Positions 8,794 to 53,235 of a stretch of 64,000 bases of DNA are shown here, piece after piece. Each line of letters opens with the position of its first letter. Within the stretch, counting starts at the first letter, position 1. Source of the DNA: Acidimicrobiales bacterium (lineage in GTDB: Bacteria; Actinomycetota; Acidimicrobiia; Acidimicrobiales; Iamiaceae); assembly GCA_035547835.1 (NCBI GenBank), contig DASZTW010000019.1:124001-188000 (forward strand). The letters run 5' to 3'. The notes under the pieces were generated by a model. The model did not search any database. It saw only the letters and a program-made list of their open reading frames with translations, and was not told the DNA's origin. The position numbers and the translations under genes are program-made.

Positions 8794-9647
8794 GGAGCGG
8801 GTTCGTCGCCCTGCTCGGGCGACCCAACGTCGGCAAGTCCACCCTGTTGAACCATGTGTTGGGCCAGAAGGTCTCGATCACCTCGAGCCGGCCCCAGACC
8901 ACCCGCACCCGCGTGCACGGTGTGCTCACGTTGCCGGCCCACCCTGGGGTGGGCGATGACGTGCAGATCGTGTTCGTCGACACGCCCGGCATCCACAAGC
9001 CCAAGACCGCGCTCGGCGAGCGGCTCAACGCCACCGCGGCCGGCGCGGCGACCGATGTCGACGTGGTGTGCCTGATGATCGACGCCACCGCGCCGTTTGG
9101 GCGTGGCGACGAGCATGTGGCACGCCAGGTGCCGCCCGACGGGATCGTGGTGATCAACAAGATCGACCGGGCCAGCAACGAGGAGCTGGTGCGTCAGCTC
9201 ACGGCCGTCGCCGCGCTCGACCGGTCGGCGTACTTCCCCGTGTCGGCCCGCACCGGCGAAGGTGTCGACGCGCTGGTCGAGGAGCTGGCACGGCGCATGC
9301 CGGAAGGGCCGCCGTACTACCCCGACGACATGGTCACCGACCAGCCCGACGCGGTGTGGGTGGCCGAGCTCGTGCGCGAGCAGCTGTTCCGGACGTTGCG
9401 TGAGGAGATGCCGTACTCCATCGCTACCCGCGTCACGGAGCTCGATTGGCCCCACATCACCTGCGAGATCCTCGTGGAGCGCGAGTCGCAAAAGGGCATG
9501 GTCATCGGCAAGGGCGGCCGTGTCCTCAAAGAAGTGGGGACCAGAGTCCGCGCCCAGCTGCGCGACGGGATCTTCTTGGAGTTGAAGGTACGCGTCGACA
9601 AGAACTGGCAGCGGCGACCTGAGACCTTCGACGAACTCGGCTATTGA
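8790..9647 (+). CDS. era: GTPase Era
   Basis: A 285-residue Era GTPase, needed for 30S subunit assembly by binding the 3' end of 16S rRNA. G1 is GRPNVGKST (residues 9-17), the switch/G2 region has SRPQTTRTRVHG, G3 is DTPGIHKP, G4 is NKIDRAS and G5 is VSARTGEG. The C-terminal KH domain is complete with VIGKGGRVLKEVGTRVR. Fourth and last gene of the phoH-ybeY-CNNM-era run, starting in an ATGA overlap. Clustering with ybeY fits a shared role in 16S rRNA maturation. Confidence 0.96.
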   Translation: MRSGFVALLGRPNVGKSTLLNHVLGQKVSITSSRPQTTRTRVHGVLTLPAHPGVGDDVQIVFVDTPGIHKPKTALGERLNATAAGAATDVDVVCLMIDATAPFGRGDEHVARQVPPDGIVVINKIDRASNEELVRQLTAVAALDRSAYFPVSARTGEGVDALVEELARRMPEGPPYYPDDMVTDQPDAVWVAELVREQLFRTLREEMPYSIATRVTELDWPHITCEILVERESQKGMVIGKGGRVLKEVGTRVRAQLRDGIFLELKVRVDKNWQRRPETFDELGY

Positions 9648-9742
9648 CCAGGCCCGACCGACGCGCTCAGACGCGCGTGGGTTTCGTCCATGCGATCGAG
9701 TAGCGGAACAGGCGAACGCCCGGGCCGCCACGCAGCCGCCGA

Positions 9743-38836: not shown

Positions 38837-38866
38837 TTGACTGACTCATCAGTCAACAACTAGGTT
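38837..38866 (+). promoter_or_regulatory. TetR-type operator O1 with embedded -35 and -10
   Basis: The 20-mer at 38837-38856 has arms TTGACTGA and TCAGTCAA. Its first six bases, TTGACT, make a -35 box; TAGGTT at 38861-38866 is a -10 box at 18-bp spacing. The GTG of the dioxygenase gene is at 38905. A repressor on the 20-mer would block the promoter. Confidence 0.7.
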
Positions 38867-38904: not shown

Positions 38905-39681
38905 GTGGTCGCGGTCGCCAACAGCGCCGACATCGAGCGGTTCCGCACGGACGGCTTCTTCCTGGCCGACGGCCTGTTCAGCGCCGCCGAGTGCGATGCG
39001 ATGGCCGAGCGGATCGAGTCGGCCGCGTTCGAGCTGGCGCTCGGCCACGCCGAGGAGGGACCGCTGTCCTACCGGCCGATGATGCACTTGGCCGACGAAG
39101 GTCTGGCGCGCTGGGCGACCGACCATCGTTGGGCCACGATCGTGCGCCCGCTCCTGCCCGAGGGCGCTCGGCTCTACTGGGAGCAGGCCGTGGTCAAGCC
39201 GCCGCAGGCTCGCACCGAGCTGCCGTGGCACCAGGACTCCGGCTACACGCCGCTGGTGCCCGAGGAGTACGTCACGTGTTGGCTCGCGCTCGACGACGCC
39301 GACGAACAGAACGGCTGCTTGTGGCTCCAGCCGGGCTCGCAGCACGACGGTCGCCAACCACACCACGACGACGGCCGAGGTGGGCCGTTCCGGGTCGGCC
39401 ACGACGGGCCGACGGTCGACGGCGTGGCCGTGCCGGTGCACCGGGGCTCGGTGCTGGTGTTCTCGTCGCTGCTCATGCACAAGTCAGGCCCGAACCTCAC
39501 CGACGGCGCCCGGCGGGCGTGGATCATCCAGTACTGCCCGATCGACGCGCGCTCCGCGCTGTCGGGAAACCTGCTCGACGACCGGCTGCAGGTCAGCGAC
39601 GGTGCCGGCTGGTTCGACACGCCCGTCCGTCAGCGCGACTTCGACCTGCTCGCCGTGCTGGCCAACTACGACCAGCGGTGA
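38905..39681 (+). CDS. phytanoyl-CoA dioxygenase family protein (Fe(II)/2-oxoglutarate)
   Basis: A 258-residue non-heme iron dioxygenase of the PhyH family. The HxD iron motif is His109-Gln-Asp111 in LPWHQDSGYTPLVP, the distal iron His192 is in FSSLLMHKSGPN, and Arg near 203 in DGARRAWIIQYCP should hold 2-oxoglutarate. All are present, so activity is expected; the substrate (an acyl-CoA, steroid or other lipid) is unknown. GTG 38905 follows GGGGGA. It is the first gene of a four-gene operon behind operator O1 and overlaps the next gene by 4 nt. Confidence 0.88.
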   Translation: MVAVANSADIERFRTDGFFLADGLFSAAECDAMAERIESAAFELALGHAEEGPLSYRPMMHLADEGLARWATDHRWATIVRPLLPEGARLYWEQAVVKPPQARTELPWHQDSGYTPLVPEEYVTCWLALDDADEQNGCLWLQPGSQHDGRQPHHDDGRGGPFRVGHDGPTVDGVAVPVHRGSVLVFSSLLMHKSGPNLTDGARRAWIIQYCPIDARSALSGNLLDDRLQVSDGAGWFDTPVRQRDFDLLAVLANYDQR

Positions 39682-40250
39682 CGCCCGACCCGAGCCCGTC
39701 GCTGCCGCTCGGCCGGCGCGCGGTGCTCGCCGGCGGCGCGGGTCTCGCCGCGTGGCTGGCGGTTGCGCCGCTGCGGATCCGGTCGGCATGGGGCGCGCCG
39801 GCAAGGCTCGCCGGCCGGGCGGCGCCGTTCCCCGGCACGCTCGCCGCGTACGCGTCGACACTGGTGCCTGGGCCCATCGACGACCCCTCGCGCACCGGGG
39901 GCGCGTACGAGGCCGGAGGGGTGCAAGTGCTGCTCGACCAACTTCCGGAAGTCGCACCTGTGGTGGTGGCCGACGTCGAAGCTGCGGCCCTCACCCGGCA
40001 CTTCGCGCCCTTCACGACCTTGACGTACTCGCAGCGCCAAGACCTCCTGGTGAAGTTGTTCGCCGATCCGCTGCACTCGACCCCGCATCTCATCGCGTTC
40101 GCGCTGATCGCCGGTGCGTATTACGGCGACATGGTCAACCGGGTGGGGAGCAAGAACATGGGCTTGCCGGGGCCGTCGAAGGGTTACCTCGCCACGTACA
40201 CCGATCGCACCGGGCACGGGCAGCCGCAATGCTTGGCGATCCCCGCGTGA
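39678..40250 (+). CDS. Tat-exported small subunit for a GMC oxidoreductase (gluconate 2-dehydrogenase subunit 3-like)
   Basis: A 190-residue protein. The N-terminus has a twin-arginine leader: GRRAVLAGGAGLAAWLAVAP followed by LRIRSAWGAPA. The mature part has VQVLLDQLPEVAPVVVADVE, LTYSQRQDLLVKLFADP and IAGAYYGDMVNRVGSKNMGL, matching the pattern of gluconate 2-dehydrogenase subunit 3-like partners, which assist or export the flavoprotein next door. It overlaps the dioxygenase gene by 4 nt and precedes the GMC gene by 16 bp. The Tat route implies the partner may be carried folded to the outside. Confidence 0.78.
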   Translation: MTPDPSPSLPLGRRAVLAGGAGLAAWLAVAPLRIRSAWGAPARLAGRAAPFPGTLAAYASTLVPGPIDDPSRTGGAYEAGGVQVLLDQLPEVAPVVVADVEAAALTRHFAPFTTLTYSQRQDLLVKLFADPLHSTPHLIAFALIAGAYYGDMVNRVGSKNMGLPGPSKGYLATYTDRTGHGQPQCLAIPA

Positions 40251-40266
40251 GGCGATAGGCCGGTCC

Positions 40267-41847
40267 ATGGTCGACCGGTACGACGTCGCGGTGATCGGTT
40301 CGGGCTTCGGCGGGTCGATCGCGGCGTTTCGCTACGCCGCCGCCGGCCTGCGGGTGATCGTGCTCGAGCGAGGCCCCGCGGTGCCCGACGCGGCGCTCGC
40401 CCAGTCAGAAGCGCCCGACTCGCTGTACCGGATCTACACGCGCTACCAGTCGGTCTATGTGCCGGCCACGGGTCGGGGCGGGCTCGACGTGCTGACAGGC
40501 TCCGTCGTCGGCGGCGGATCCATCGTGTACTCCGGCGTGTCGCTCCGGGCTCCCTCCTTCGTGTTCGACCGGACCGAAGGGGGTGGCCGGCGCCTGTTCC
40601 CTGCCGCGATCACGCGCGCCGAGCTCGATCCGTTCTACGACCTCGTCGAACGCAACTTGCCGGTCACCCAGATGGTCTGGCGGACCGGCGACCCCGGCGA
40701 ACAGTGGCGCCAAGTACCGAGGCGCGGCTCGGTCTGGGCCAGCGCCGCACGCCTTGGCGGCCACACCGTGTTGCCGATCCGCCAAGCCGTCGACGACTGC
40801 CTGCACTGCGGCTGGTGCAACACGGGCTGCCAGTTCGGCCGCAAGCGAGACATGACCAAGAACTACTTGGGCGCGGCGCGCCGGCTCGGCGTCGAAGTGC
40901 GCTCGGGTGTGGAGGTCGACCTGGTTGCACGCGTCGCGGGCGTCTGGCAGGTGATCGGGCACCCCGGGCCGGGTGCGGAGGGTGGCTCGGGTCAAGGGGT
41001 GGCGTTGCTCCAAGCCGACGAGGTCGTGGTCGCCGCCGGCGCGATCGGAAGCACCCTGCTGCTCCAACGATCCGGGATCAGCAACCCGCATCTCGGCCGC
41101 CACATCTCGGGCAACGCCGACTTGCCGCTGGGCGCGTTCATGCCACAGCGAACCGACGTCTACCAAGGTGTGGCGATGGACACGGTCTCGTTCGACTGGC
41201 TGCGCCCCGAGTCGACCGGTCCCCACGCGGCCGACAAGTTCATCGTGATCACCCAGCACATGTTGCCGTTGTCGACGCTGATCGACGGGCATGGCGCGTC
41301 CCGCTCCGGGCAACCCGACGCGTGGGGCCTGACCAAGAAGCAGCGCTACCGCGACTTCGGCAGCCACTTCCTCGGCCTCGCGGTGATCGGCCTCGACGAC
41401 TCCGAAGGCGTGATCGACGGCCCCGAGGTCAGCGTGTACCAAGGCAACCGGCTGCTCCCGCTGCGCTACGAGCAGAGCCCGGCGTCGAAAGCGGTCTGGG
41501 ACCGTGCCCGGACGGTGTGCCGCGGGATCGTCGAGGACGCCGGCGGCACGTTCGTCGACGTCGCCCGCGAGTACCCGAACCCCCAGACCGCGCACCCGCT
41601 CGGCGGAACACGGATGGCGGTGGCGCGCGGCGACGGGGTGGTGGACCAGGACGGACGGGTCTTCGGTCAGCCCGGGTTGTCGGTGCTCGACGGATCGATC
41701 GTGCCGACCGCGCTCGCCGTGAACCCGTCGCTGACCATCGCTGCGCTGGTCGAGCGGGCAATGCAGCGTCGCTTGCGTGCCATGGGCAGACCTGACGCCG
41801 CAGACCTCCGGCCCGACGCGGTCCTCCACGGCAGGGCCCACAGGTGA
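40267..41847 (+). CDS. GMC-family FAD oxidoreductase
   Basis: A 526-residue flavoprotein. The FAD-binding GxGxxG is IGSGFGGSIAAFRYA (residues 9-23). GSVVGGGSIVYSGVSLRAP is the second GMC segment. A Cys cluster CLHCGWCNTGCQFGRKRD is typical of the cholesterol-oxidase/4Fe-less GMC branch. The C-terminal active-site region has TAHPLGGTRM and LSVLDGSIVPTALAVNPSLT. It oxidises an alcohol, possibly a sterol or sugar; specificity is not readable. No signal peptide of its own; it may be exported with the Tat-leader subunit encoded just upstream. Its stop overlaps the GTG of the secreted protein gene. Confidence 0.88.
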   Translation: MVDRYDVAVIGSGFGGSIAAFRYAAAGLRVIVLERGPAVPDAALAQSEAPDSLYRIYTRYQSVYVPATGRGGLDVLTGSVVGGGSIVYSGVSLRAPSFVFDRTEGGGRRLFPAAITRAELDPFYDLVERNLPVTQMVWRTGDPGEQWRQVPRRGSVWASAARLGGHTVLPIRQAVDDCLHCGWCNTGCQFGRKRDMTKNYLGAARRLGVEVRSGVEVDLVARVAGVWQVIGHPGPGAEGGSGQGVALLQADEVVVAAGAIGSTLLLQRSGISNPHLGRHISGNADLPLGAFMPQRTDVYQGVAMDTVSFDWLRPESTGPHAADKFIVITQHMLPLSTLIDGHGASRSGQPDAWGLTKKQRYRDFGSHFLGLAVIGLDDSEGVIDGPEVSVYQGNRLLPLRYEQSPASKAVWDRARTVCRGIVEDAGGTFVDVAREYPNPQTAHPLGGTRMAVARGDGVVDQDGRVFGQPGLSVLDGSIVPTALAVNPSLTIAALVERAMQRRLRAMGRPDAADLRPDAVLHGRAHR

Positions 41848-42542
41848 GCGCGCACATGGCCGCGAAGGCGAGAACGGAGCGGAATGCCGAGATGAAGACC
41901 GATCCGATCGTCCGACCCGGGCGGATGTGGTCGTGGCTGGCGGCCGCGCTCGCCACGTGCCTGCTGGCCCTCACCACCATGGCCGGGTCCCCTCCCGCCG
42001 GCGCGCAACAAGCGCCCGGGCCAGGCGCGCCGTCCCCGTATCACGACCCCTCGTTCACTTGTCACGTCTACGACTACGGCACCCGACCCCCGACGATCCC
42101 GGGGCCGGCCGACGATCCGCTGTGCGTGCGGTACGACAAGCGCAACATCGATCTCGGCACCCCCGGGTTCGTCGACTTCCTGCAAGCCGAGCCGGGCCGC
42201 GTCGCGATCGTCGCGGGCAAGTGCGGGTACTGGCAGCAGGACCGTTGGGAAGTGCGCATCCCGCTGTTCCGCACGCCGCTCGTCGAGTGGTCGGGGTCGT
42301 ACTGGTACGACGGCCGCACGCTCCAGGCGGGTGCCGCGGCCCGTGCGATGAAGGTCGCCGGCCAGCCAGTCGGCGGCCAGGCGTTCCTCTCCGCGATCGC
42401 GTCGCTGTTCGGGTCTGCGGCTGCGAGCCGGCTCGCGCCGTACGTTGACGCCGGCGGCGGAGGCGGGATCAGCTACGACATCCCGTTCGGGTCGCAAGCG
42501 GCCCTGTTGCTGCGAGCCGCCTGCGGAGCCGGGCATCGATGA
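41844..42542 (+). CDS. secreted hypothetical protein
   Basis: A 232-residue protein with a signal peptide: basic start, hydrophobic WSWLAAALATCLLALTTMAG, then Pro/Ala-rich cleavage region near AGAQQAPG. The mature part has cysteines in SFTCHVYDYG, DDPLCVRYDK and VAGKCGYWQQ, which could form disulfides, and sheet-like EVRIPLFRTPLVEWSGSYWY. I do not recognise a family. GTG 41844 overlaps the GMC stop; an internal ATG (codon 17) is a possible start. As last gene of the O1 operon it may act with the exported oxidoreductase. Confidence 0.7.
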   Translation: MSAHMAAKARTERNAEMKTDPIVRPGRMWSWLAAALATCLLALTTMAGSPPAGAQQAPGPGAPSPYHDPSFTCHVYDYGTRPPTIPGPADDPLCVRYDKRNIDLGTPGFVDFLQAEPGRVAIVAGKCGYWQQDRWEVRIPLFRTPLVEWSGSYWYDGRTLQAGAAARAMKVAGQPVGGQAFLSAIASLFGSAAASRLAPYVDAGGGGGISYDIPFGSQAALLLRAACGAGHR

Positions 42543-42687: not shown

Positions 42688-43359
42688 ATGACCAAGACAT
42701 CCGGCCCCAACACGCCCGCAGCGTCCACCGCGATGATCCGCGTGCTCGGCGCCATCGCGTACGGCGAGCTCAAAGCACACGAAGAAGCCCGCGCCAATGC
42801 CGAGGCGGCCACGACCGACGCCGAGCGCCAGGCGTGGGAGCGCGTCGCCGCGCAGGAGCTCGGCCACCATCGGGGCTTCCTCCACCGGCTCGAAGCCCTC
42901 GGCGCCGATCCTGAGCGCGCCATGCGCCCGTATCGAAGGCTGCTCGACCGCTACCACGGCCAACAGCCCCGCGGCACCGTCGAAGCGGCCGTGTGGTCGG
43001 TGCTGGGCGAGGGCATCGCCGAAGACCTGCTGCTCTGGCTGCGCCGGGTCTCCGATCCCGACACGTCTGCGTGGATCGCGAACGTGCTGAAGGACGAGGA
43101 GGAGCACGAAGCCGGCGCCCAGCAGCGAGCGCTCGCGGTCGTCTCGGCGAACCCGGTCAACCGCGTGCGCGCGGTCGGCGCGCTGGTCACGATGCTCGGA
43201 CGGATGCTGCGCAGCACCGAGCCCGGTCCACTGCCGCTGCGGGTGTTCGTGGAGGTCGGCCGGCCCCACGAGCTGGTGGCCGGCATCACCCGCGGCTACG
43301 CGCGGCGAGCCGGGATGGTCGGCGCGGCGGCGATCGGTCGGCGTGCCGCGGCGGCCTGA
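42688..43359 (+). CDS. ferritin-like fold protein, MiaE_2-like
   Basis: A 223-residue helical protein of the actinobacterial ferritin-fold group related to tRNA hydroxylase MiaE. Typical segments: VLGAIAYGELKAHEEARANA, ERVAAQELGHHRGFLHRLEA, EGIAEDLLLWLRRV and VLKDEEEHEAGAQQRALAVV. Candidate di-iron ligands are Glu in AYGEL, Glu-x-x-His in AQELGHH, and Glu/His in DEEEHE. Whether it hydroxylates tRNA is not known. TTGGAGG precedes the ATG by 9 nt. It lies 145 bp after the O1 operon and may have its own promoter. Confidence 0.78.
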   Translation: MTKTSGPNTPAASTAMIRVLGAIAYGELKAHEEARANAEAATTDAERQAWERVAAQELGHHRGFLHRLEALGADPERAMRPYRRLLDRYHGQQPRGTVEAAVWSVLGEGIAEDLLLWLRRVSDPDTSAWIANVLKDEEEHEAGAQQRALAVVSANPVNRVRAVGALVTMLGRMLRSTEPGPLPLRVFVEVGRPHELVAGITRGYARRAGMVGAAAIGRRAAAA

Positions 43360-43429: not shown

Positions 43430-44530
43430 TCAGGGGCGGACCACGCCGTGCACGGGTGGTAGGTCACCCTCGCCTGCCATCGACCGGAGCAGGCGTTCAA
43501 CCCCGTCGAGCCCCACGACCGCGCGGGGGAGTGCGCCGAATGGGTAGCGGTCGGCGACCAGCAGGTCGACCGCAGCCCGGTACGCCACGACATCGACGCC
43601 GAGCGCGCCGAACACTTGCAGCTCCTTGTAGACGACAGCGTCGGGCGAGAAGCCCGGCGCCTCACCGCCCCCGCGGGTGCCGGCGACGACCACGCGCCCG
43701 CCTGCCCTCGCCAGGCGGATGGCCTGCGCGAACGCCGCCGGTGCCTTGGCCGTGACGTCGACCACCACGTGTGCGAGCCCGCCGGTCGCACCGTGCAGCG
43801 CCTTGACCGGATCGTGGCGCTCGACGTCGACGGCGAGATCGGCGCCGAACTCGGCCGCTATCGCGAGCCGTCCCTCGTCGCGTGGTCCACGACCGGTGAC
43901 CATCACGAAGCCCGCACCTGCTTCCCGTGCCGCAGCTGCCGCGCACAGCCCGCGGATGCCCGGACCCAGCACGGCGACGATCTCGCCGGGGCTGGTTGCC
44001 GGCACCGTGACGGCCCACCGGATCCCGGCGCCGAGCGGGTTGAACAACGTGGCGAGCACCGGGTCGAGCGTCGCGGGCACCGGGAGCAGCATCGAGTCCG
44101 GCGCCAAGTACTGATGCTCGGCGTAGCCACCCCACAGCCCGGGTGGCTCGTCGACCGCCTTGAAGCCGTACATGTCGCCGATGCCGTGCACATCGCAGTG
44201 CCGGTAGTTGCCGGCGCGGCACGGGTCGCAGCTGCGACACGACTGGAACACCTCGAGCGCGACCCGGTCGCCGGCCTGCACGCCCCAACGGGCCGACGCC
44301 GCCGTGCCGATCTGTTCGACGACGCCCACGGTCTCGTGGCCGGGCACGAACGGGAAGCCACCGTGGAGCTGGCCGGTGTACTGCTCGTGGTCGGTGCCGC
44401 ACAGCCCGCACGCTTCGACGCGCACCAACCCGTCGTCATCGCCGAGCTCCGGGTGGGGCAGCGATCGCGGGCGGAACTGGCGCGGCGCCTCGAGTACGAG
44501 TGTGCGGGAGCGGTTCGTCATCCGGGCCAT
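43430..44530 (-). CDS. zinc-dependent alcohol dehydrogenase (MDR family)
   Basis: A 366-residue medium-chain dehydrogenase. The catalytic zinc site is CGLCGTDHEQYTG with GHETVG; the structural zinc site is CRSCDPCRAGNYRHC. The nucleotide fold has VAVLGPGIRGLCAAAAAREA, slightly degenerate at GxGxxG (GPGIRG). LARAGGRVVVAGTRGG follows. It should oxidise an alcohol or polyol with NAD(P). Start ATG 44530; an in-frame ATG at 44521 is an option. It is divergent from the nitronate monooxygenase gene, and operator O2 lies between them. Confidence 0.88.
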   Translation of the reverse strand: MARMTNRSRTLVLEAPRQFRPRSLPHPELGDDDGLVRVEACGLCGTDHEQYTGQLHGGFPFVPGHETVGVVEQIGTAASARWGVQAGDRVALEVFQSCRSCDPCRAGNYRHCDVHGIGDMYGFKAVDEPPGLWGGYAEHQYLAPDSMLLPVPATLDPVLATLFNPLGAGIRWAVTVPATSPGEIVAVLGPGIRGLCAAAAAREAGAGFVMVTGRGPRDEGRLAIAAEFGADLAVDVERHDPVKALHGATGGLAHVVVDVTAKAPAAFAQAIRLARAGGRVVVAGTRGGGEAPGFSPDAVVYKELQVFGALGVDVVAYRAAVDLLVADRYPFGALPRAVVGLDGVERLLRSMAGEGDLPPVHGVVRP

Positions 44531-44552: not shown

Positions 44553-44594
44553 GTCTTACAATTGATTGACAAGTCAGTCAATAGCTCTTAGCGT
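44553..44594. promoter_or_regulatory. bidirectional promoter with TetR-type operator O2
   Basis: The 20-mer TTGATTGACAAGTCAGTCAA at 44562-44581 is a palindrome with one mismatch per arm pair. Rightward: -35 TTGACA (44566-44571) and -10 TAGCGT (44589-44594), 17-bp spacing, 6 nt from the ATG at 44601. Leftward: -35 TTGACT (44581-44576) and -10 TAAGAC (44558-44553), 17-bp spacing. One bound repressor would close both promoters. Confidence 0.72.
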
Positions 44595-44600
44595 CGGATC

Positions 44601-45743
44601 ATGCAGACAGCGATCGCTTCGCAGCTCGGCATCGAGTTCCCGATATTCGCTTTCAGCCACTGCCGCGACGTCGTGGCCGCGGTCTCGAAAGCCGGTGGCC
44701 TGGGCGTGCTGGGTGCGGTTGGCCACACCCCCGAGCTGCTCGACACGGAACTGACCTGGATCGAGGAGCACTGCGGCGGAAAGCCCTTCGGCGTCGACCT
44801 GCTGTTGCCGTCGAAGTTCGTCGGCGCCGACGCGGGCGGCCTCGACGCCAAGCAGGTGGGCGACCTGCTGCCAGCCGAGCACCGGGCGTTCCTCGATGAC
44901 CTGCTCGAGCGGTATGGGATCGAGGTCCCGCCCGCGGAACAGCGTCTGCCCACCGGCGCAGGTCTCAACGTGTCGCGGCGCGGCTACGAGCCGTTGCTCG
45001 ACGTCGCGTTTCAGCACCCGATCGCGCTGATCGCGAGCGCGCTCGGGTCCCCGCCTGTCGACCTCGTCGAGCGCGCCCACGGCAACGACGTGATGGTCGC
45101 CGCGCTGGCCGGCACCCGAGACCACGCGGTGCACCACGCCGAGGCGGGCGTGGACCTGATCGTGGCCCAGGGCACCGAAGCCGGTGGTCACACCGGCGAG
45201 ATCGCCACGATGGTCCTGGTCCCGGAAGTGGTGGACGCCGTGGCTCCCACGCCGGTGCTCGCTGCCGGCGGCATCGGGCGCGGCCGCCAGATCGCGGCCG
45301 CCCTCGCATTGGGCGCGCAAGGGGTCTGGTGCGGTTCGGTGTGGCTCACCACTGAGGAAGCCGAGACGGCACCGGTGGTGAAGGAGAAGTTCCTCGCTGC
45401 CGGCTCGGCCGACACCGTGCGGTCCCGGTCGCTGACCGGCAAGCCCGCCCGGATGCTGCGCACGGCGTGGACCGACGAGTGGGACCGGCCCGACACGCCT
45501 GACCCGCTCGGCATGCCGCTGCAGACCGCGCTGGTCAGCGACCCGCAGCTGCGCATCCACCTGGCGTCCAACGATCCCGACGCGCCGGCTCGCCAGTTGG
45601 CGACGTACTTCGTGGGGCAGGTGGTCGGCTCGCTCGACCGCGTCCGCCCGGCGGGAACCGTGGTGCTCGAGATGGTCGATGAGTTCATCGACGCCGTCCA
45701 GGGGCTCGAGCAACTCGTCGGTGGGGCCAACGGCGACCGATGA
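44601..45743 (+). CDS. nitronate monooxygenase (2-nitropropane dioxygenase family)
   Basis: A 380-residue FMN enzyme with a TIM barrel. Conserved parts: IEFPIFAFSHCRDVVAAVSK, AGGLGVLGAVG, the FMN-phosphate/His region LIVAQGTEAGGHTGEIATMV and VLAAGGIGRGRQIAAALALG followed by AQGVWCGSVWL. The family oxidises nitronates, but many actinobacterial members sit in lipid or aromatic degradation clusters with other roles. A -10 box ends 6 nt before its ATG, so the mRNA is probably leaderless. It heads an operon with a hypothetical gene and a TetR regulator. Confidence 0.88.
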   Translation: MQTAIASQLGIEFPIFAFSHCRDVVAAVSKAGGLGVLGAVGHTPELLDTELTWIEEHCGGKPFGVDLLLPSKFVGADAGGLDAKQVGDLLPAEHRAFLDDLLERYGIEVPPAEQRLPTGAGLNVSRRGYEPLLDVAFQHPIALIASALGSPPVDLVERAHGNDVMVAALAGTRDHAVHHAEAGVDLIVAQGTEAGGHTGEIATMVLVPEVVDAVAPTPVLAAGGIGRGRQIAAALALGAQGVWCGSVWLTTEEAETAPVVKEKFLAAGSADTVRSRSLTGKPARMLRTAWTDEWDRPDTPDPLGMPLQTALVSDPQLRIHLASNDPDAPARQLATYFVGQVVGSLDRVRPAGTVVLEMVDEFIDAVQGLEQLVGGANGDR

Positions 45744-46768
45744 CGATCGACCCGGGCCTGCCGCGGTGGGACGGTCGTGCCGGGCGGCTGGAGGTCTGGT
45801 ACGTGACGTTCACCGACGCCGACGGCACCGGCTACTGGATCCACCAAGAGGTGGTCGCCCCCACAACCACTGCTGTGAGCGCTCAGCCACCCACCAGGTG
45901 GTCAACTGCTCACAACACGGATGTTGGGGGTGATGGACCGAGGGTGGTGGGATGGCTGGCCGTGTTCCCGCCGGACGGATCGCCGGAGCTCGTCCGGTTC
46001 GGGCCTGCGCCGGTCGAGCGGTCTGCGGCGGCGGACCCGGCGGCGGGCACCGGACGCTCGGGTGCCGGCGACTGGTGCCGGGTGGGCGACAACGTGATCG
46101 GGGCCGGCTACGTGCGCGGCGCGGCAGGCAAGTGGTCGTGGGATCTCGAGTTGGAGGGTGGCGAGCCACCGCTGTGGACGTTCCCGTCGTGGTCCTGGCG
46201 GCGCGAGGTGTTGCCGGGCTCGCAAGTGCTCGCGCGGCCGGGGGCCGCGGTGCGGGGCAAGGTCGTCGGGCCCGGTGGGGTGCGGGACCTCGATGCTCGC
46301 GGCGCGCTGGCACGCATCTACGGTCATGGGAGCGCTCAGCGCTGGTGCTGGCTGCATGCGGATCTCGACGGCGGCGGCACCCTGGAAGTGGTGGCTGCCA
46401 CCCCGCGCCGACCAGGTCTGCGGCGCCTTCCGCTGGTGCCCATGGTGCAGTTGCGTTTGCCGGGCGAGCCCGATTGGCCTGCGCACGGGCTGGCGGCAGC
46501 GGCACGGTTCCGGGCCCGGGTCGACGGTGATCGCTTCACCGTGCGCGGCGCGGTGGGTCACCGTCGGCTGTCCCTCGACGTGCACCTCCCGGCGCAACGC
46601 TGCGTGTCGGTTGGTTACGTCGACCCCGACGGTGCGACCGCCACGTGTGTGAACAGCGAGCGCGCCGACGCGGTGGTGGTCGTCGAGGACTCGGCGGCGA
46701 GGTCGGGGTCCGAGCGCCGGTGGACGCTCGCGGCCCGAGCGCACGCCGAGATCGGCAGCCGACCGTGA
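45740..46768 (+). CDS. conserved hypothetical, lipocalin-like, with an in-frame palindromic repeat insertion
   Basis: A 342-residue protein. Segments such as AGRLEVWYVTFTDADGTGYW, GKWSWDLELEGGEP, LARIYGHGSAQRWCWLHADL and GTLEVVAATPRRPG suggest a large beta-barrel of the CrtC/AttH or tocopherol-cyclase type that binds a hydrophobic ligand; I cannot confirm the family. Residues about 41-65 (PTTTAVSAQPPTRWSTAHNT and onward) coincide with a palindromic repeat (45858-45930). They use codons such as ACA, ACT, TCA and GGA that are rare in neighbouring genes, and they interrupt what would read HQEVVA to PRVVGWLAV. It overlaps the nitronate monooxygenase gene by 4 nt. Confidence 0.72.
   Translation: MTIDPGLPRWDGRAGRLEVWYVTFTDADGTGYWIHQEVVAPTTTAVSAQPPTRWSTAHNTDVGGDGPRVVGWLAVFPPDGSPELVRFGPAPVERSAAADPAAGTGRSGAGDWCRVGDNVIGAGYVRGAAGKWSWDLELEGGEPPLWTFPSWSWRREVLPGSQVLARPGAAVRGKVVGPGGVRDLDARGALARIYGHGSAQRWCWLHADLDGGGTLEVVAATPRRPGLRRLPLVPMVQLRLPGEPDWPAHGLAAAARFRARVDGDRFTVRGAVGHRRLSLDVHLPAQRCVSVGYVDPDGATATCVNSERADAVVVVEDSAARSGSERRWTLAARAHAEIGSRP
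45858..45930. repeat. palindromic repeat inserted in frame in a coding sequence
   Basis: A 73-bp hairpin: outer arms CCCCCACAAC (45858-45867) and GTTGGGGG (45923-45930), TGTGAGC (45874-45880) and GCTCACA (45908-45914), inner CCACC and GGTGG. Its right half closely matches that of the tandem repeats at 55188-55346 (GGTGG-CAA-TGCTCACA-CACG core). Confidence 0.8.
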
Positions 46769-46821
46769 GCGGATCCGTCGCTCGGACAGGTCCACGGGAG
46801 CTGCACAAGGGGGTCAGTAGG

Positions 46822-47520
46822 GTGGCATCGGTGACGACCAAGAGCGGCAAGGCCACGCGTCGGCGGCGTGCCAGCAGCGACGAGGAGAAGTCGCAACGGC
46901 GCGACGAGATCATGGCCGCCGCCAAGCAGGTGTTCGCGCGCAAAGGGTTCCACGCCACGACCATCGCCGACATCGCCAAGGCGGCAGGACTGTCCTACGG
47001 CTCGGTGTACTGGTACTTCGACTCCAAAGACGAGCTGTTCCACGCGCTGATGGAGGTCGAGGAGCACGCCCTGCGCGATCACTTGGCACGCTCTCTGGCG
47101 GATCCGGCCGCCACCGTCGACGACTTCTTCCGCATCGCCGTGCGCTCCACGTTCGAGTTCTTCGAGTCCGATCGCGACACCGTGAAGCTGCTGTTTCGCG
47201 ACGCGCTGGCGTTCGGCGACCGCTTCGAGAAGCACCTCGGCGGCATCTACGAGCGCTTCATCACCGACATCGAGGCGGCGATCATGGTGGCCCGCGAGCG
47301 TGGCGACATCATCGACCTGCCGCCCCGCATGGTGGCGTTCACGCTGGCGTCGCTCATCGGCCAGCTCGCCCATCGCCGCCTGACGACCGATGACGGCGTG
47401 CCGGCCAGCGCAGTGGCCGACTTCGTGGTCACGCTCGTCCTCGACGGCCTGCGCCCGCGGACGCCCGCCGTCGCCGCCGCCCGCGCGCCGGCATCGTCCC
47501 GCCGTCGTACGGCCACCTGA
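46822..47520 (+). CDS. TetR-family transcriptional regulator
   Basis: A 232-residue TetR regulator. A basic N-terminus (KSGKATRRRRASSDEEKSQR) precedes the DNA-binding domain EIMAAAKQVFARKGFHATTI with ADIAKAAGLSYGSVYWYFDS and KDELFHALME. The ligand domain is helical, with RSTFEFFESDRDTVKLLFRD and AFTLASLIGQLAHRRL. The DNA-binding domain resembles those of TetR proteins that sense acyl-CoA or other lipid ligands, but the ligand is unknown. It ends the operon whose promoter holds operator O2, so it is the natural candidate to bind the three 20-bp palindromes and to regulate itself. GTG 46822 follows AAGGGGG; GTG 46831 is an alternative. Confidence 0.9.
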   Translation: MASVTTKSGKATRRRRASSDEEKSQRRDEIMAAAKQVFARKGFHATTIADIAKAAGLSYGSVYWYFDSKDELFHALMEVEEHALRDHLARSLADPAATVDDFFRIAVRSTFEFFESDRDTVKLLFRDALAFGDRFEKHLGGIYERFITDIEAAIMVARERGDIIDLPPRMVAFTLASLIGQLAHRRLTTDDGVPASAVADFVVTLVLDGLRPRTPAVAAARAPASSRRRTAT

Positions 47521-47554: not shown

Positions 47555-47995
47555 TCACACGATGCGGTACGTGAGATGGCCGTGCGCCACCGGCGTGCCG
47601 TCGGGGTCGGTGGCGGTCATCTCGCAGAAGGTCAGCTCCCGGCCCCGCTTCACGGCCCGGGCATGGACCACGAGGTCGGTGCCCTTGCAGACCCCGACGT
47701 ACTGCAAGGACATGCTGACCGTCGAGGCGCGGGTGCCCTTGGAGAAGTCGTGGTTCGACCACGCGGCGGCCGCGCCCGCCGTGTCCATGACCGTGGCGAT
47801 GACGCCGCCGTGGTACACGTGGCCGTCGTTGGTGAGCTCGGCACGGAAGGGGAGCCGGAGCGTGACCTCGTCGGGCTCGTAACGATCGAACACCAGCCCG
47901 AGCCCTGACAAGTAAGGCGTCGAGCCCATGACGTCGGGGATCGCCTTGCGGTAGGCGACCTGATCCTCGTCCGACATCGTCGGGCCGTCCGCCAT
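47555..47995 (-). CDS. PaaI-family hotdog thioesterase
   Basis: A 146-residue hotdog-fold protein: VTLRLPFRAELTNDGHVYHG, the hotdog helix GGVIATVMDTAGAAAAWS, STVSMSLQYVGVCKGTDLVV and RELTFCEMTATDPDGTPVAH. The Asn/Asp and His-Gly-Gly motif fits acyl-CoA thioesterases of the PaaI type. ATG 47995 has GAGGTGCG upstream. It is convergent with the TetR gene, and operator O3 lies 19 bp upstream of its start. This supports a role in the same lipid-related regulon. Confidence 0.87.
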   Translation of the reverse strand: MADGPTMSDEDQVAYRKAIPDVMGSTPYLSGLGLVFDRYEPDEVTLRLPFRAELTNDGHVYHGGVIATVMDTAGAAAAWSNHDFSKGTRASTVSMSLQYVGVCKGTDLVVHARAVKRGRELTFCEMTATDPDGTPVAHGHLTYRIV

Positions 47996-48013: not shown

Positions 48014-48033
48014 TTGACTGACATGTCAGTCTA
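48014..48033 (-). promoter_or_regulatory. TetR-type operator O3
   Basis: TTGACTGACATGTCAGTCTA on the plus strand is a 20-mer with 9-bp arms and one mismatch, the same pattern as O1 and O2. Read on the minus strand, its start TAGACT (48033-48028) also fits a -10 box for the thioesterase gene that begins at 47995. Confidence 0.68.
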
Positions 48034-48060: not shown

Positions 48061-48984
48061 CTACTCGGCCGGTGCCGGCGACAGGCGAGCCCCCTGCGGG
48101 ACGAGCGCGGGCCGCTCGAGCTGGCCCTCGAGCTCGTCCATCGGGTCGAGCTCCCGCCGTGAACCGGCGGCGGCCGGTGAGATCCTCGCCGCGCGAGTCG
48201 AACGGCCGATGTAGGCGTAGGCCAAGCCCACCAGCGCGCCGCCACCGACGATGTTGCCGGGAACCGACCACACCAGGTTGTTCCACAGGCTGTGCCAGTG
48301 GCCGTCGCCGCTGAACGCCGCCAACGACAAGACGGTCATGTTCGCGATCGAGTGTTCGAACCCCGAGGCGATGAACGCCAGCAGCGCCCACCAGAGGCAG
48401 ATCAGCTTGGCCGCGTCGCTGGTGGCGCGGGCGGCCATCCACATCGCCAGGCACACCAAGAAGTTGCACAGCACGGCCCGCAGGAACACCTGACCGCCGG
48501 TGAGGTGGTCTTTGCCGGCCACGATCGACGCGAGCGCGGCGTGGGCGGGCCCGGCCTTGCCGGGGGTGGCGCCGCTGTCGAGGATGCCCGAGCCGTTCAC
48601 CAGCGCGGCGAACGCGACCGAGCCGATGAGGTTGCCGACCAGCGAGGCGACCCACACGCCTACCAGTTGCGCCGTCTTGATCCGCTTGGCGACCATGCCG
48701 ATGACCATCACCATGTTGTTGCCGGTGAACAGCTCGGCGCCGGCGAACACCACCAAGGTGAGGGCCACGCCGAAGACGGAGCCCTGTACGAGCTTGGTGC
48801 TGGCGGAGTGGCCGTTGATGAGCGGCGCGCTCACCATCAACAACAAGATCACCGCCACGCCGATGAAGGCACCCGCGAGAGCCGAGCTCGCGAGGTAGCG
48901 CAACGGACTTCGCAGGAGTTGGTCGGCTTTGTCGGCCGCGAGGTCCTCCTGTGACCGGAGGGCGTCGGGTACGGGGGTCGGCAT
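48061..48984 (-). CDS. formate/nitrite transporter family channel (NirC-like)
   Basis: A 307-residue FNT-family channel. About six membrane helices run from residue 30 to 265: YLASSALAGAFIGVAVILLL, LTLVVFAGAELFTGNNMVMV (with the FNT signature around GAELFTGN), ASLVGNLIGSVAFAALVNGS, LCNFLVCLAMWMAARATSD, SGFEHSIANMTVLSLAAF and WSVPGNIVGGGALVGLAYAY. FNT channels conduct formate, nitrite or hydrosulfide. Being next to nirBD argues for nitrite. A 40-residue polar tail follows. GGAGGAACG precedes the ATG. A GlnR-type box lies upstream at 49118-49155. Confidence 0.88.
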   Translation of the reverse strand: MPTPVPDALRSQEDLAADKADQLLRSPLRYLASSALAGAFIGVAVILLLMVSAPLINGHSASTKLVQGSVFGVALTLVVFAGAELFTGNNMVMVIGMVAKRIKTAQLVGVWVASLVGNLIGSVAFAALVNGSGILDSGATPGKAGPAHAALASIVAGKDHLTGGQVFLRAVLCNFLVCLAMWMAARATSDAAKLICLWWALLAFIASGFEHSIANMTVLSLAAFSGDGHWHSLWNNLVWSVPGNIVGGGALVGLAYAYIGRSTRAARISPAAAGSRRELDPMDELEGQLERPALVPQGARLSPAPAE

Positions 48985-49117
48985 CGTTCCTCCATCAATT
49001 GTCGGCAGTGGGTTTCGCCGACCCATTGGGACAGACGTGCGTTTCGTGGCCGTGTCCCGTCGCGCAAGGGCGGGTGACGGCCGGCCGACATGTGACGTCT
49101 CGCACCGTGCGGCGGTG

Positions 49118-49155
49118 GTAGCGGTGCCGAAACGGCCGGTTAACCGAATGGAAAC
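49118..49155. promoter_or_regulatory. GlnR-type nitrogen control box
   Basis: Four half-sites with exact 6-nt spacing: GTAGC (49118-49122), GAAAC (49129-49133), TTAAC (49140-49144) and GAAAC (49151-49155). The known actinobacterial GlnR pattern is gTnAC-n6-GaAAC, here repeated twice in tandem. It lies between the divergent FNT channel and HemD-like genes; its distance to the FNT start (134 bp) suits activation of that gene. No glnR gene is in the window. Confidence 0.68.
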
Positions 49156-49177
49156 GAACGTCCAGCACACTGGAGCG

Positions 49178-50314
49178 ATGGACCTCCCGTTGCGCGGCGC
49201 GACCGTCGGTGTCACCGCGGACCGTCGCAGCGGCGAGCAGTCCCTGTTGTTGGAGCGTCTCGGCGCCAAGGTCCTCCACGCCCCCACGATCCACACGCTG
49301 CCCCTCGTCGACGAAGGCGACGGTGGTGAGCTGGCCCAGCTCACCGAAGCGCTCGCGCTCGACCCGCCGGTCGCCGTCGTGCTGACCACCGGCATCGGCG
49401 TACGGGGTTGGCTCAGCGCGGTCGACGCATCAGGGACGCGCGACCGGCTCGACCGGGTCTTCGCGGGCGCGGACCTGTGGGTGCGCGGCCCCAAGGCCGC
49501 CGGTGAGCTGACGGTGGCCGGCCATGAGATCTTCGCGAGCGCCGCCTCCGAGCTCGGCGCCGAGCTGGTCGCCCGGGTGGCGGCGCGATACCCGGCAGGC
49601 AGCCGGGTCGCCGTGCAGATCGACGGATCGGCCGATCCGGTGTTGGTCACCGCGCTGGCCGAAGCCGGCTTGGACTCCGTGGCGGTCCGGGTCTATCGGT
49701 GGACCGACCACCCGGACCTCGAGCGAGCCGGGCGGCTCATCGAGACGATCGTCGAGCAGCGCGTCGACGCAGTGACGTTCACGAGCTCACCGGCGTTGAC
49801 GCGCCTGGTCGACCTCGCCGACCGCTCCGGGCTCGGCCCGCCGCTGCGCGCCGCGTTCCACGAGGAAGTCGCCGCGGCGGTGGTCGGACCTGCGTGCGCC
49901 GCGACGGCGCGCCGCGTGGGGATCGTCCCGGCGGTGGAGCCCGATCGGGCGCGCCTCGGCGCCATGGTCGAGGCCGTGGCGCAGCACCTCGCGAGGCCCC
50001 GCTTGCTCGATGTGGCCGGCGAGCGGTTGGCTCTGCGGCGGGCAGCCGTGGTGGTCGGTGACCGGGTGGTGGAGCTGCCGGCACGGGAGCGCAGCGTGCT
50101 CGAAGTGCTGGCAGCCAGGCCAGGTGCGGTGGTGTCACGCCGCACACTCGGTCAACGGGCGTGGCCCGACGGCTGGGCCGATGACCACACCGTCGGCGTG
50201 ACCGTCACCCGGCTGCGCCGCCGCCTCGGGCGGCTCGGGAGTGCCGTGGAGACGTCGCCGCGCCGGGGCTACCGCCTCGTCGCGACGGCGCTCGGCGCCG
50301 ACGTCAGCGCTTGA
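49178..50314 (+). CDS. uroporphyrinogen-III synthase fused to a winged-helix regulator domain
   Basis: A 378-residue two-domain protein. Residues 1-260 form a HemD (uroporphyrinogen-III synthase) fold: LPLRGATVGVTADRRSGEQS, VVLTTGIGVRGWLSAVDAS, GAELVARVAARYPAGSRVAV, FTSSPALTRLVDLADRSGLG. Residues about 285-370 are an OmpR-type winged helix: VVELPARERSVLEVLAARPG, VVSRRTLGQRAWPDG and VGVTVTRLRRRLGRLG. This matches the type of M. tuberculosis Rv0260c, which lies near nirBD. It may link siroheme supply for NirB with regulation. ATG 49178 is preferred over ATG 49148, which lies inside the GlnR-type box. Confidence 0.87.
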   Translation: MDLPLRGATVGVTADRRSGEQSLLLERLGAKVLHAPTIHTLPLVDEGDGGELAQLTEALALDPPVAVVLTTGIGVRGWLSAVDASGTRDRLDRVFAGADLWVRGPKAAGELTVAGHEIFASAASELGAELVARVAARYPAGSRVAVQIDGSADPVLVTALAEAGLDSVAVRVYRWTDHPDLERAGRLIETIVEQRVDAVTFTSSPALTRLVDLADRSGLGPPLRAAFHEEVAAAVVGPACAATARRVGIVPAVEPDRARLGAMVEAVAQHLARPRLLDVAGERLALRRAAVVVGDRVVELPARERSVLEVLAARPGAVVSRRTLGQRAWPDGWADDHTVGVTVTRLRRRLGRLGSAVETSPRRGYRLVATALGADVSA

Positions 50315-50320
50315 CCCCGC

Positions 50321-50719
50321 TCACCGGCCGGTGCCGACGAACACGGCGCCGCCGTGGACTCGCACGTCGTGGCTGGCCACGGGGTCGCCGCCGGTGAGGC
50401 ACTCGCCGGTGGCGAGGTCGTAGCGGTGCTTGTACATCGGTGACGCCACGTACTTGCGCCCGGCGGTGTCGCCCAGCAGGCCGCGGCTGAGCACCGGTGC
50501 GCCTGACGCCGCTGGGTCGACGTTGTCGAGCGCGTAGATGACGCCGTCGTCGGTGAGGAACATGGCGATCTGGCGGCCGGCAACCAGGGCGGCCACGCCC
50601 GAGCCGCGGCGAAGCGCGTCGACACCGCACACCTTGGTCCAGCGGGCGGCGCTCGCCGGCGTGGCCGGGGAACCGCCCAAGTCGGCATCGTCGAGCGCGT
50701 CGGCAGAGAGATCGGTCAT
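50321..50719 (-). CDS. nirD: nitrite reductase [NAD(P)H] small subunit NirD
   Basis: A 132-residue Rieske-fold subunit without Rieske ligands, as usual for NirD: WTKVCGVDALRRGSGVAALV, IAMFLTDDGVIYALDNVDPA, RKYVASPMYKHRYDLATGEC and VASHDVRVHGGAVFVGTG. It partners NirB in assimilatory reduction of nitrite to ammonia. An N-terminal Ala/Asp-rich extension of 25 residues is present. It overlaps nirB by 4 nt and is convergent with the HemD-like gene, only 6 bp away. Confidence 0.93.
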   Translation of the reverse strand: MTDLSADALDDADLGGSPATPASAARWTKVCGVDALRRGSGVAALVAGRQIAMFLTDDGVIYALDNVDPAASGAPVLSRGLLGDTAGRKYVASPMYKHRYDLATGECLTGGDPVASHDVRVHGGAVFVGTGR

Positions 50720-53235
50720 GGGAGTGCTCCTGCGGGTTCGGGTTGGCGCTGGCCGCGGATGCGGACGTACTGGGCGGTCTCGTCCAGCGAGTCGGTGTTG
50801 ACGAACGGCTTGAAGCGTTCGAGGCGGGCCGGGTCAGCCAGTGTCTCGGCCCATTCGCAGGCGTACGAGTCGACGTGGTGGGCCATGGCGGCGTCGAGCT
50901 CGTCGCAGATGCCGAGAGCGTCGTCGATGATCACTCGACGGAGCTGTTCGATCCCGCCGTCGAGTTTCGAGAGCCAGGTGGCGGTTCGTTCGAGCCGGCC
51001 GGCGGTGCGGATGTAGTACATGAGGAAGCGGTCGATCGTGCGGACCAACGTCTCGGTGTCGAGGTCGGTCGCCAGCAAGTCGGCGTGGCGCGGTCGCATG
51101 CCGCCGTTGCCGCCCACGAACAGGTTCCAGCCCCGCTCGGTGGCGATGATCCCGAAGTCCTTGCCTTGGGCCTCGGCGCATTCGCGTGCGCAACCCGACA
51201 CGGCGGACTTGAGCTTGTGCGGCGCCCGCAGTCCCCGGTAGCGGAGCTCGAGCTCGATGGCGAGCTGCGTCGAGTCCTGCACGCCGAACCGGCACCAGGT
51301 CGAGCCGACACACGACTTCACCGTGCGCAGCGCCTTGCCGTACGCGTGGCCCGACTCGAAGCCTGCGTCGACCAGGCGACCCCAGATGGCCGGCAGCTGG
51401 TCGACCCGGGCGCCGAACAAGTCGATCCGCTGGGCGCCGGTGATCTTGGTGTACAAGTCGAACTCACGAGCGATCTCGCCGATCACGATCAGCTGGTCGG
51501 GGGTGATCTCACCGCCGGCCACGCGTGGCACCACGGAGTACGTGCCGTCGCGCTGGATGTTGGCGAGGAATGCGTCGTTGGTGTCCTGCAAGGTGGCCTG
51601 CTCGCCGTCGAGGATGTGGCCGCTGTCGAGTGACGCCAACATCGAGGCGACGGCCGGCTTGCAGATCTCGCAGCCGGTGCCCGTGCCGAACCGCTCGACG
51701 AGCTCCGCGAACGTCCGGATGCCGGTCACGCGCACCACGTCGAACAACTCGGCGCGGGACTGCGCGAAGTGTTCGCAGAGCCGGTCGACCACCACTTCAC
51801 CCCGAGCCCGACGCTCGGCGCCGAGCAGCTCGGTGATGATCGGGACACACGATCCACAGCCGGTTCCAGCGCCCGTGCACGCCTTGATCGCGGGCACGTC
51901 GGTCGCGTCGTTCTCGTGGAACGCCGAGCGAATGTCGCCCGCGGTGACGTTGTGGCACGTGCACACCAGGCTCGAACCGTCGAGGGCGCCGAAATCCGTC
52001 GGCGCCTGGTGGCCCGTCACCAACACCCCCGGATCGTCGGGCGCTGCGAGTGTGCCTCGGGCCATCTGCACCAAGGTGGGGTAGAGGCTGGTGTCGCCGA
52101 CCATCACCGCGCCCACGAGCTCGCCGCCGGCGCCGATCAGCAGCTTGCGGTAGACGCCGGCGATCGGGTCGCGGAAGGAGACTTCCTCGACGTCGTCACG
52201 GGCATCGGCCCGGACTTCGCCGACCGACGCGACGTCGACGCCGAGCAGCTTCAGCTTGGTCGACGGGTCGCCGCCGTCGTACGGCTCGGCGTCGAACCCG
52301 GCCAGCCGGTGGGCCAGCACTTTGGCCATGGCGATGCCGGGGCCGACGAGACCCACGACCTTGCCGGCGTGGCAGGCCACTTCGCCGATCGCGTGCACGC
52401 CCGCTGCCGACGCCGCCATCCAGTCGTCGACCACGACGCCGCCCCGCCCGCCGATGGCCAGACCAGCGTCGCGGGCCAAATCGTCACACGGGCGGATGCC
52501 GGCTGCGCAGATCACGATGTCTGCTGCCAAGGTGTCGCCGTCCGCGAGTCGCAGCCCCGACACCCGGCGACCGTCCGACTCGATGGCCTCCACCATGGCG
52601 GCGGTTCGCACGGCGATGCCGAGGCGGATCACGTCGCGGGCGAGCATGGCCGCGCCGGCCGCGTCGATCTGGGCAGCCATCAGGTGAGGAGCCACTTCGA
52701 CGACTTCGACATCGTCGACGCCGGCGAGTTGCAGCGCGTGCGCCGCCTCGAGGCCGAGCAGGCCGCCGCCGATCACCACGCCGCGCCAGGCTTTGGCTGC
52801 GTCGGCGCGGATCCCCTCGACGTCGGCGAGGGTGCGGTAGACGTGCACCCCGGGGGTGTCGGCACCGGGGATCGGCGGCACGAACGGGCGTGAACCGGTG
52901 GCCAGCACGCACTCGTCGTAAGGGAGGTTGACGCCGCCGCGGGCCCGCAGCACTTTGGCGTCGGCGTCGAGGTGCTCGACCCGCCGCCCGAGCCGCAGCT
53001 CGATGCCGTGGGCGTCGTACCAGTCGGGGCCGGCAAGGGTGAGCGTGGCCTCGGTCTGGTCGTCGAACAAGCCTGACAAGTGGACGCGGTCGTACGCGGG
53101 GCGGCGCTCCTCGCCGAACACCACCACTTCGAAGCGGCGGTGGAGGTCGAGAGCGACGAGCTCTTCGAGGAACCGGTGCCCGACCATCCCATTGCCGACG
53201 ACGACCAGGCGGGGGCGGCGCGGGGGAGAGGCCAT
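50716..53235 (-). CDS. nirB: nitrite reductase [NAD(P)H] large subunit NirB
   Basis: An 839-residue siroheme nitrite reductase. The N-terminal FAD/NAD module has LVVVGNGMVGHRFLEELVAL, GVVIGGGLLGLEAAHALQLA and an NAD/FAD segment AAGVHAIGEVACHAGKVVGL. A BFD-like [2Fe-2S] domain has LVCTCHNVTAGDI and TGCGSCVP; a second short Cys region is TGTGCEICKPAVASML. The siroheme/[4Fe-4S] Cys residues are in CVGSTWCRFGVQDS and SGCARECAEAQGKDFGI. All cofactor motifs are complete. It reduces nitrite to ammonia using NAD(P)H. A weak GlnR-like half-box lies at 53270-53285, upstream of the ATG. Confidence 0.96.
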   Translation of the reverse strand: MASPPRRPRLVVVGNGMVGHRFLEELVALDLHRRFEVVVFGEERRPAYDRVHLSGLFDDQTEATLTLAGPDWYDAHGIELRLGRRVEHLDADAKVLRARGGVNLPYDECVLATGSRPFVPPIPGADTPGVHVYRTLADVEGIRADAAKAWRGVVIGGGLLGLEAAHALQLAGVDDVEVVEVAPHLMAAQIDAAGAAMLARDVIRLGIAVRTAAMVEAIESDGRRVSGLRLADGDTLAADIVICAAGIRPCDDLARDAGLAIGGRGGVVVDDWMAASAAGVHAIGEVACHAGKVVGLVGPGIAMAKVLAHRLAGFDAEPYDGGDPSTKLKLLGVDVASVGEVRADARDDVEEVSFRDPIAGVYRKLLIGAGGELVGAVMVGDTSLYPTLVQMARGTLAAPDDPGVLVTGHQAPTDFGALDGSSLVCTCHNVTAGDIRSAFHENDATDVPAIKACTGAGTGCGSCVPIITELLGAERRARGEVVVDRLCEHFAQSRAELFDVVRVTGIRTFAELVERFGTGTGCEICKPAVASMLASLDSGHILDGEQATLQDTNDAFLANIQRDGTYSVVPRVAGGEITPDQLIVIGEIAREFDLYTKITGAQRIDLFGARVDQLPAIWGRLVDAGFESGHAYGKALRTVKSCVGSTWCRFGVQDSTQLAIELELRYRGLRAPHKLKSAVSGCARECAEAQGKDFGIIATERGWNLFVGGNGGMRPRHADLLATDLDTETLVRTIDRFLMYYIRTAGRLERTATWLSKLDGGIEQLRRVIIDDALGICDELDAAMAHHVDSYACEWAETLADPARLERFKPFVNTDSLDETAQYVRIRGQRQPEPAGALP

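Follow-up and report, generated by a model that had tools for sequence, protein, structure and literature searches.

A probable TetR-type regulon joining a PhyH dioxygenase, a Tat-leader/GMC oxidoreductase pair and a secreted four-cysteine protein in a bacterium of the Iamiaceae

What is the use of an operon that encodes one oxidation inside the cell together with another outside it? The question is raised by four genes in a stretch of 64,000 nucleotides, referred to here as the window (contig DASZTW010000019.1, positions 124,001 to 188,000, of assembly GCA_035547835.1, an Acidimicrobiales bacterium), which was taken from a genome of 3.70 Mb in 22 contigs. A first-pass annotation had described them as a PhyH-like dioxygenase, a small protein with a twin-arginine leader, a GMC flavoprotein without a signal of its own and a secreted protein with paired cysteines, linked by overlaps and a 16-bp gap. 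This description was confirmed by the open reading frames (ORFs), protein families, leaders and cysteines. The gene set is real, regulated and partly conserved, and it is probably part of a TetR-controlled catabolic regulon for the induced breakdown of a hydroxylated compound of lipid-like nature, in which one of the oxidations would take place outside the membrane; the substrate class is a guess.

The operon and the proposed regulon around it

The operon is composed of the following genes:

38905 to 39681, plus strand: PhyH-type Fe(II)/2-oxoglutarate dioxygenase, cytosolic (ORF; PF05721, E 6.6e-32; H109, D111, H192 and R203 kept)
39678 to 40250, plus strand: small protein with a twin-arginine translocation (Tat) leader, DUF5987-like, putative hitchhiker subunit (ORF with GTG start; leader)
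40267 to 41847, plus strand: GMC flavoprotein without leader; putative 3Fe-4S ligands C178, C184 and C188; catalytic H443 and N486 (Pfam, alignment)
41844 to 42542, plus strand: secreted protein whose mature part contains four cysteines; its family partners the Tat-GMC pair (ORF, alignment of relatives)
42688 to 43359, plus strand: MiaE_2-like ferritin-type protein, whose gene probably closes the operon (PF13794, E 1e-19; scan begun at 42691)

According to the ORF calls, the dioxygenase gene overlaps that of the small Tat protein by 4 bases, a gap of 16 bases separates the latter from the GMC gene, and the GMC gene overlaps that of the secreted cysteine protein by 4 bases. The operon is not closed at 42542, where the MiaE_2-like gene follows on the same strand. 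The dioxygenase scores 111.9 bits against PhyH, above the cut-off of 22, and its HxD...H...R residues (H109-x-D111, H192, R203) are also kept in a relative from G249, a genome of the same class but of another family. Its closest solved structures by sequence are PHYHD1 and EvdO2.

The operon had been taken as the unit, and a larger TetR-type regulon around it had gone unseen. The regulated set extends to 48.0 kb and adds the following features:

38837 to 38856, no strand: palindrome TTGACTGACTCATCAGTCAA, putative TetR operator before the dioxygenase operon (perfect dyad)
43430 to 44530, minus strand: zinc alcohol dehydrogenase (ADH) of the regulon (66% identical to the copy at locus L015 of G249)
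44562 to 44581, no strand: palindrome TTGATTGACAAGTCAGTCAA between the divergent ADH and NMO genes (site match)
44601 to 45743, plus strand: NMO-family FMN protein, nitronate monooxygenase or FabK-like (80% identical to the copy at locus L024)
45740 to 46768, plus strand: protein of unknown family between the NMO and TetR genes (no Pfam match)
46645 to 47520, plus strand: TetR-family regulator, true start probably further in (PF00440, E 4.6e-20; 58% identical to the L015 TetR)
47555 to 47995, minus strand: regulon thioesterase of the 4HBT type (the L015 copy is 63% identical)
48014 to 48033, no strand: palindrome TTGACTGACATGTCAGTCTA before the thioesterase (site match)

The protein at 45740 to 46768, of 342 amino acids, is counted in the regulon by its position.

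The first palindrome was spotted by eye ahead of counting. All three sites have at most 1 mismatch to TTGACTGA-n4-TCAGTCAA, are intergenic and lie before regulon genes. At up to 3 mismatches, 0.01 matches to this pattern are expected per window, and another 359,426 bases of this genome gave none; two window matches with 3 mismatches, at 5279 and 19942, lie inside genes and were excluded from the site count. In a control, 101 dyads of the 8-4-8 form were counted in the window, and recurrence alone is weak evidence, because for 52 of them a second site exists that differs by no more than 2 mismatches. Only the TTGACTGA sites form a trio in which all members are dyads and all match one another, other dyads reaching pairs (list read by eye). 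The three palindromes and the regulator gene thus probably belong to one TetR-type regulon, from 38.8 to 48.0 kb, in which the TetR protein is the presumed natural binder of the palindromes. These offer a route to the inducer, and hence to the substrate of the pathway.

The Tat-GMC pair and its four-cysteine partner

The small protein shows RR13 followed by a hydrophobic stretch, which is a Tat leader. The N-terminus of the GMC protein (GMC_oxred_N, E 2e-20; GMC_oxred_C, E 1.9e-17) begins directly at the FAD motif MVDRYDVAVIGSGFGG, and the protein therefore has no leader of its own. Close GMC relatives were found in 4 of 395 class genomes at E 1e-40 and in 5 of 396 phylum genomes at E 1e-30 (own genome included in both counts), and the small protein in 1 of the 24 genomes of its taxonomic family, its own. 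The pair was followed through ten aligned loci: the window, L015 (G249), L016 (G414), L017 (G352), L018 (G468), L019 (G665), L020 (G736), L032 (G904), L053 (the Streptomyces globisporus C-1027 plasmid) and L054 (a plasmid of Streptomyces sp. NBC_01562). Locus L021 of G724, with a GMC 29-30% identical and a leaderless small upstream protein of 133 amino acids, was excluded from the alignments and used as outgroup in the GMC tree only.

The small protein is encoded directly upstream of the GMC at all ten loci and has an RR leader at eight, the leaderless ones being L053 and L020. Identity to the window small protein is only 22-29%, for which reason the small proteins of L015 to L017 were assigned by position and leader. 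Against DUF5987 (PF19449) the window small protein scores 18.7 bits, below the cut-off of 27, and five of eight aligned small proteins match this family at E up to 1. DUF5987 occurs in 4 of 396 phylum genomes at E 1e-3; three matches are over the cut-off, and all three adjoin a GMC. A structure model of the small protein alone (mean predicted local distance difference test score, pLDDT, 39.6) was too poor and was left unused.

The first-pass annotation had held that no known pathway explains such a mixture. For the substrate this still stands; for the layout it does not, as a leaderless GMC with a Tat small subunit is known from the FAD-glucose dehydrogenase of Burkholderia (PMC6719666). That paper describes the B. 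cepacia complex as a GMC catalytic subunit, a hitchhiker small subunit and a cytochrome c subunit, where the GMC subunit travels with the small Tat-leader subunit, Cys212, Cys218 and Cys222 hold a 3Fe-4S cluster and a Cys152-Cys213 bond connects the two subunits. The window GMC is likewise leaderless, is encoded beside a small Tat-leader protein and has the His/Asn pair, H443 and N486, which is invariant in all ten aligned GMCs. C178, C184 and C188 have the same spacing (C-x5-C-x3-C) as the Burkholderia ligands, the cluster being putative here. All three cysteines are present in seven of the ten GMCs, C178 and C188 in every one and C184 in those seven; the GMCs of L020, L053 and L054 have Met at the C184 position, but a Cys three residues past the first Cys, and the window GMC likewise has one there (C181). 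By analogy with the Cys152-Cys213 bond, a disulfide between C181 and C185, the sole Cys of the window small protein and near its C-terminal end, is possible.

Unlike the Burkholderia system, the window operon has no cytochrome subunit and instead encodes the four-cysteine secreted protein, includes a cytosolic dioxygenase, and has a GMC whose profile is nearer cholesterol oxidases than the glucose enzyme. The label of glucose or gluconate dehydrogenase was rejected, as the operon has no cytochrome gene and the small protein no sequence match to its Burkholderia counterpart; the window pair works like the hitchhiker type but is not classed as a member. In the profile search against the PDB, cholesterol oxidases came first (2.5e-45; 1COY the best match) and glucose dehydrogenase gave 1e-26. 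A cholesterol oxidase model (NF058674) is also the best curated model for this GMC, which reaches 127.9 bits against its curated cut-off of 850; the label was rejected and kept as a possible substrate class only. The cholesterol oxidase family is not known to have a Tat partner subunit or a Cys cluster. In the GmcA/GmcB alcohol dehydrogenase of verrucomicrobial methanotrophs, likened here by its description, a GMC large subunit also goes with a small subunit, and the report on it proposes movement by Tat and oxidation of small alcohols outside (PMC8630023); phylum and pathway are different. The exported GMC pair is thus of a known kind. The leaders, the leaderless GMC and the conserved pairing support the earlier suggestions that the GMC is carried by Tat and that cytosolic and exported oxidation steps are mixed in one operon; export itself we infer.

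The same two-gene pair is found on the C-1027 plasmid, in the enediyne cluster, with a GMC 34% identical to that of the window. It differs in that the small protein is leaderless and the GMC has Met for C184, and the plasmid has no match to the cysteine protein, unlike the window operon. We take its two genes to be those named SgcE8 and SgcE9. This pair (L053, 8989-11231), which adjoins polyketide synthase genes, and that of G736 (L020, 7270-9506) are without a Tat leader and seem to function intracellularly.

The secreted protein has four cysteines in its mature part (73, 94, 127 and 227) and no match in Pfam or NCBIfam. It is found in 4 of 199 genomes of the class of G468 and in 3 of the 8 genomes with GMC relatives, own included. 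In two of those four genomes (loci L018 and L032) its gene lies next to the DUF5987-GMC pair in divergent orientation. Of 72,556 plasmid records two encode it, and in each a GMC gene follows 1145 bases downstream of where the match begins; the two records are counted as one event. In the record examined, NBC_01562, DUF5987 lies between the two genes, the order being cysteine protein, 6 bases, DUF5987, 4-base overlap, GMC. C73, C94 and C127 are invariant in six aligned cysteine proteins and C227 is common to five, the L054 copy having its last Cys at another aligned position. The window and NBC_01562 proteins lack a C-terminal region present in the others. Since it neighbours such a pair in two genomes and on Streptomyces plasmids, the protein is probably a real third component of the Tat-GMC pair. 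A model of its mature form (mean pLDDT 48.1) was too poor to be used, and a Foldseek search with it gave no match at E up to 0.001. At L033 of G907 (8372-9903), two copies of the family lie side by side in a stretch with no GMC match; the second, partial copy was excluded from the alignments.

A family without a Pfam match is in this way named as partner of a hitchhiker-type dehydrogenase. DUF5987, a word found in no paper by literature search, is linked to the same enzyme type by gene order, leader and cluster residues, which gives it a testable role.

Coupling to the dioxygenase and proposed function

Relatives of the dioxygenase were found in 2 of 390 class genomes at E up to 1e-50, the own genome and G249, and in both the gene adjoins a Tat-GMC pair. 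An earlier scan of genome contigs had found no relative; a later one with a two-sequence dioxygenase alignment gave two loci, of which L024 (genome G937) has a dioxygenase 69% identical and L025 is the G249 contig again. At L015 of G249 the dioxygenase is 61% identical to that of the window, and the thioesterase, ADH and TetR regulator are similarly related (63%, 66% and 58%). The L015 NMO is 34% identical over its whole length and 42% over the best part, and the GMC 33-38% depending on the method. L015 additionally encodes a carboxymuconolactone-type protein, a thiolase-like protein and a flavoprotein which, from an FMO-like match, we take to be of the Baeyer-Villiger type. The last two recur at L024 with the dioxygenase and the NMO. 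L015 also has two weaker palindromes (3 mismatches), one preceding the thiolase-like gene and the other the Tat-GMC pair. At 2575-2919 L015 also encodes a MiaE_2-like protein of 114 amino acids that matches the 223-residue window copy only near its start; judged by sequence, it looks internally shortened.

The gene order differs between the window and L015. In the GMC tree, L015, L016 and L017 form one group (support 100/100), and joining the window and L015 GMCs alone was rejected (approximately unbiased test, p 3.9e-15). The window GMC has a long branch and no firm place; a wider group with L015 to L017 is neither supported nor rejected. On this sequence evidence, the two GMCs belong to different lineages, and the coupling of dioxygenase and pair therefore came about, or was renewed, on more than one occasion. 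Whether a second cassette took the place of a first or the two became associated independently, a working link is favoured. The first-pass annotation would have been refuted by homologs that are never found together elsewhere. This is not the case: dioxygenase and pair recur in one other genome and cysteine protein and pair in others, but all four genes jointly were seen only in the window. A literature search found no paper on this operon; the cysteine protein as third component and its joining to a dioxygenase regulon are new, as far as the literature was searched.

In the proposed mechanism, the substrate, when present, would release the repressor from the three palindromes and the genes would be made. 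The GMC protein would take up FAD and probably a 3Fe-4S cluster while folding in the cytosol, bind the small Tat-leader protein and cross the Tat pore with it as in the Burkholderia enzyme. Outside, it would oxidise an alcohol group of a lipid-like compound, which might be sterol-, terpenoid- or branched-chain-like. The exported four-cysteine protein would serve as dedicated partner of the GMC, as a structural subunit, in substrate delivery or as electron relay. The product would be taken up and oxidised further inside by the PhyH dioxygenase, ADH, NMO-type flavoprotein and thioesterase. A bolder version, which is only tentatively put forward and may well be wrong, is that the cysteine protein forms the third subunit in exported Fe-S GMC dehydrogenases of an undescribed class, where it would stand in for the cytochrome c subunit by relaying electrons or carrying substrate, and that the dioxygenase regulon recruited such complexes at least twice to start lipid degradation outside the membrane.

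Opposing evidence, alternatives and neighbouring genes

Several results weigh against the catabolic regulon as proposed. G937 has the dioxygenase set but only distant GMC matches (best 27%), and the dioxygenase therefore does not need the pair; its 4.5 kb at L024 contain no palindrome site. The TetR protein was matched to the palindromes by position only. The cysteine protein lies on a different contig from the pair in G665, and no GMC match was found within 11.7 kb around it in G907. A PDB profile search gave no sequence match between the window small protein and the Burkholderia small subunit. No haem-c motif (CxxCH) was seen by eye in the translations of the four operon genes, and the electron acceptor is therefore missing from the operon. 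The own genome has no close copies of the thiolase-like protein (best 42%) or the Baeyer-Villiger-type flavoprotein (best 39-41%), for which reason a complete alicyclic pathway as in the relatives was rejected; for SAR202 bacteria, the opening of alicyclic rings by Baeyer-Villiger enzymes has been proposed (PMC5395668). Steroid breakdown was also rejected and stays only a possible substrate class: a search for 3-ketosteroid dehydrogenase gave just a sub-threshold match in the own genome (543.7 bits, cut-off 788). This enzyme is over the cut-off in one of nine genomes, and seven of the nine have no match at E 1e-50.

The strongest alternative is that one promoter serves two independent modules, a portable exported cassette (small protein, GMC and cysteine protein) and a cytosolic dioxygenase pathway, acting on different compounds and only co-induced. 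It would account for the pairs of L016 to L020 and L032, which have no dioxygenase relative in the stretch examined, for those of L053 and L054, beside which no dioxygenase is listed, for the G937 dioxygenase without a close GMC, and for the differences in gene order and GMC lineage between the window and L015. Two separate cassette lineages, however, became neighbours of one rare dioxygenase (2 of 390 genomes), and operator-like sites precede the cassette-bearing operon in both the window and L015; such repeated joining is easier to explain by a common substrate, and independent modules are considered unlikely. Less probable still is a biosynthetic tailoring set in which the pair is a cytosolic chaperone-enzyme couple acting on a natural product, as presumed for the leaderless C-1027 pair; although that pair lies between SgcE6/P450 genes and a thioesterase, and PhyH enzymes are common in tailoring (PDB matches EvdO2 and SnoK), the window small protein has a leader, which those of L020 and L053 lack, no polyketide or peptide synthase is present among the window genes scanned near the operon, and the neighbours of the operon are of catabolic types.

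Beyond the regulon, the gene at 48929-50314 of the window encodes a uroporphyrinogen-III synthase domain fused to the DNA-binding domain of a transcriptional regulator, and it adjoins Rieske-type and nitrite reductase genes (50321-53235).

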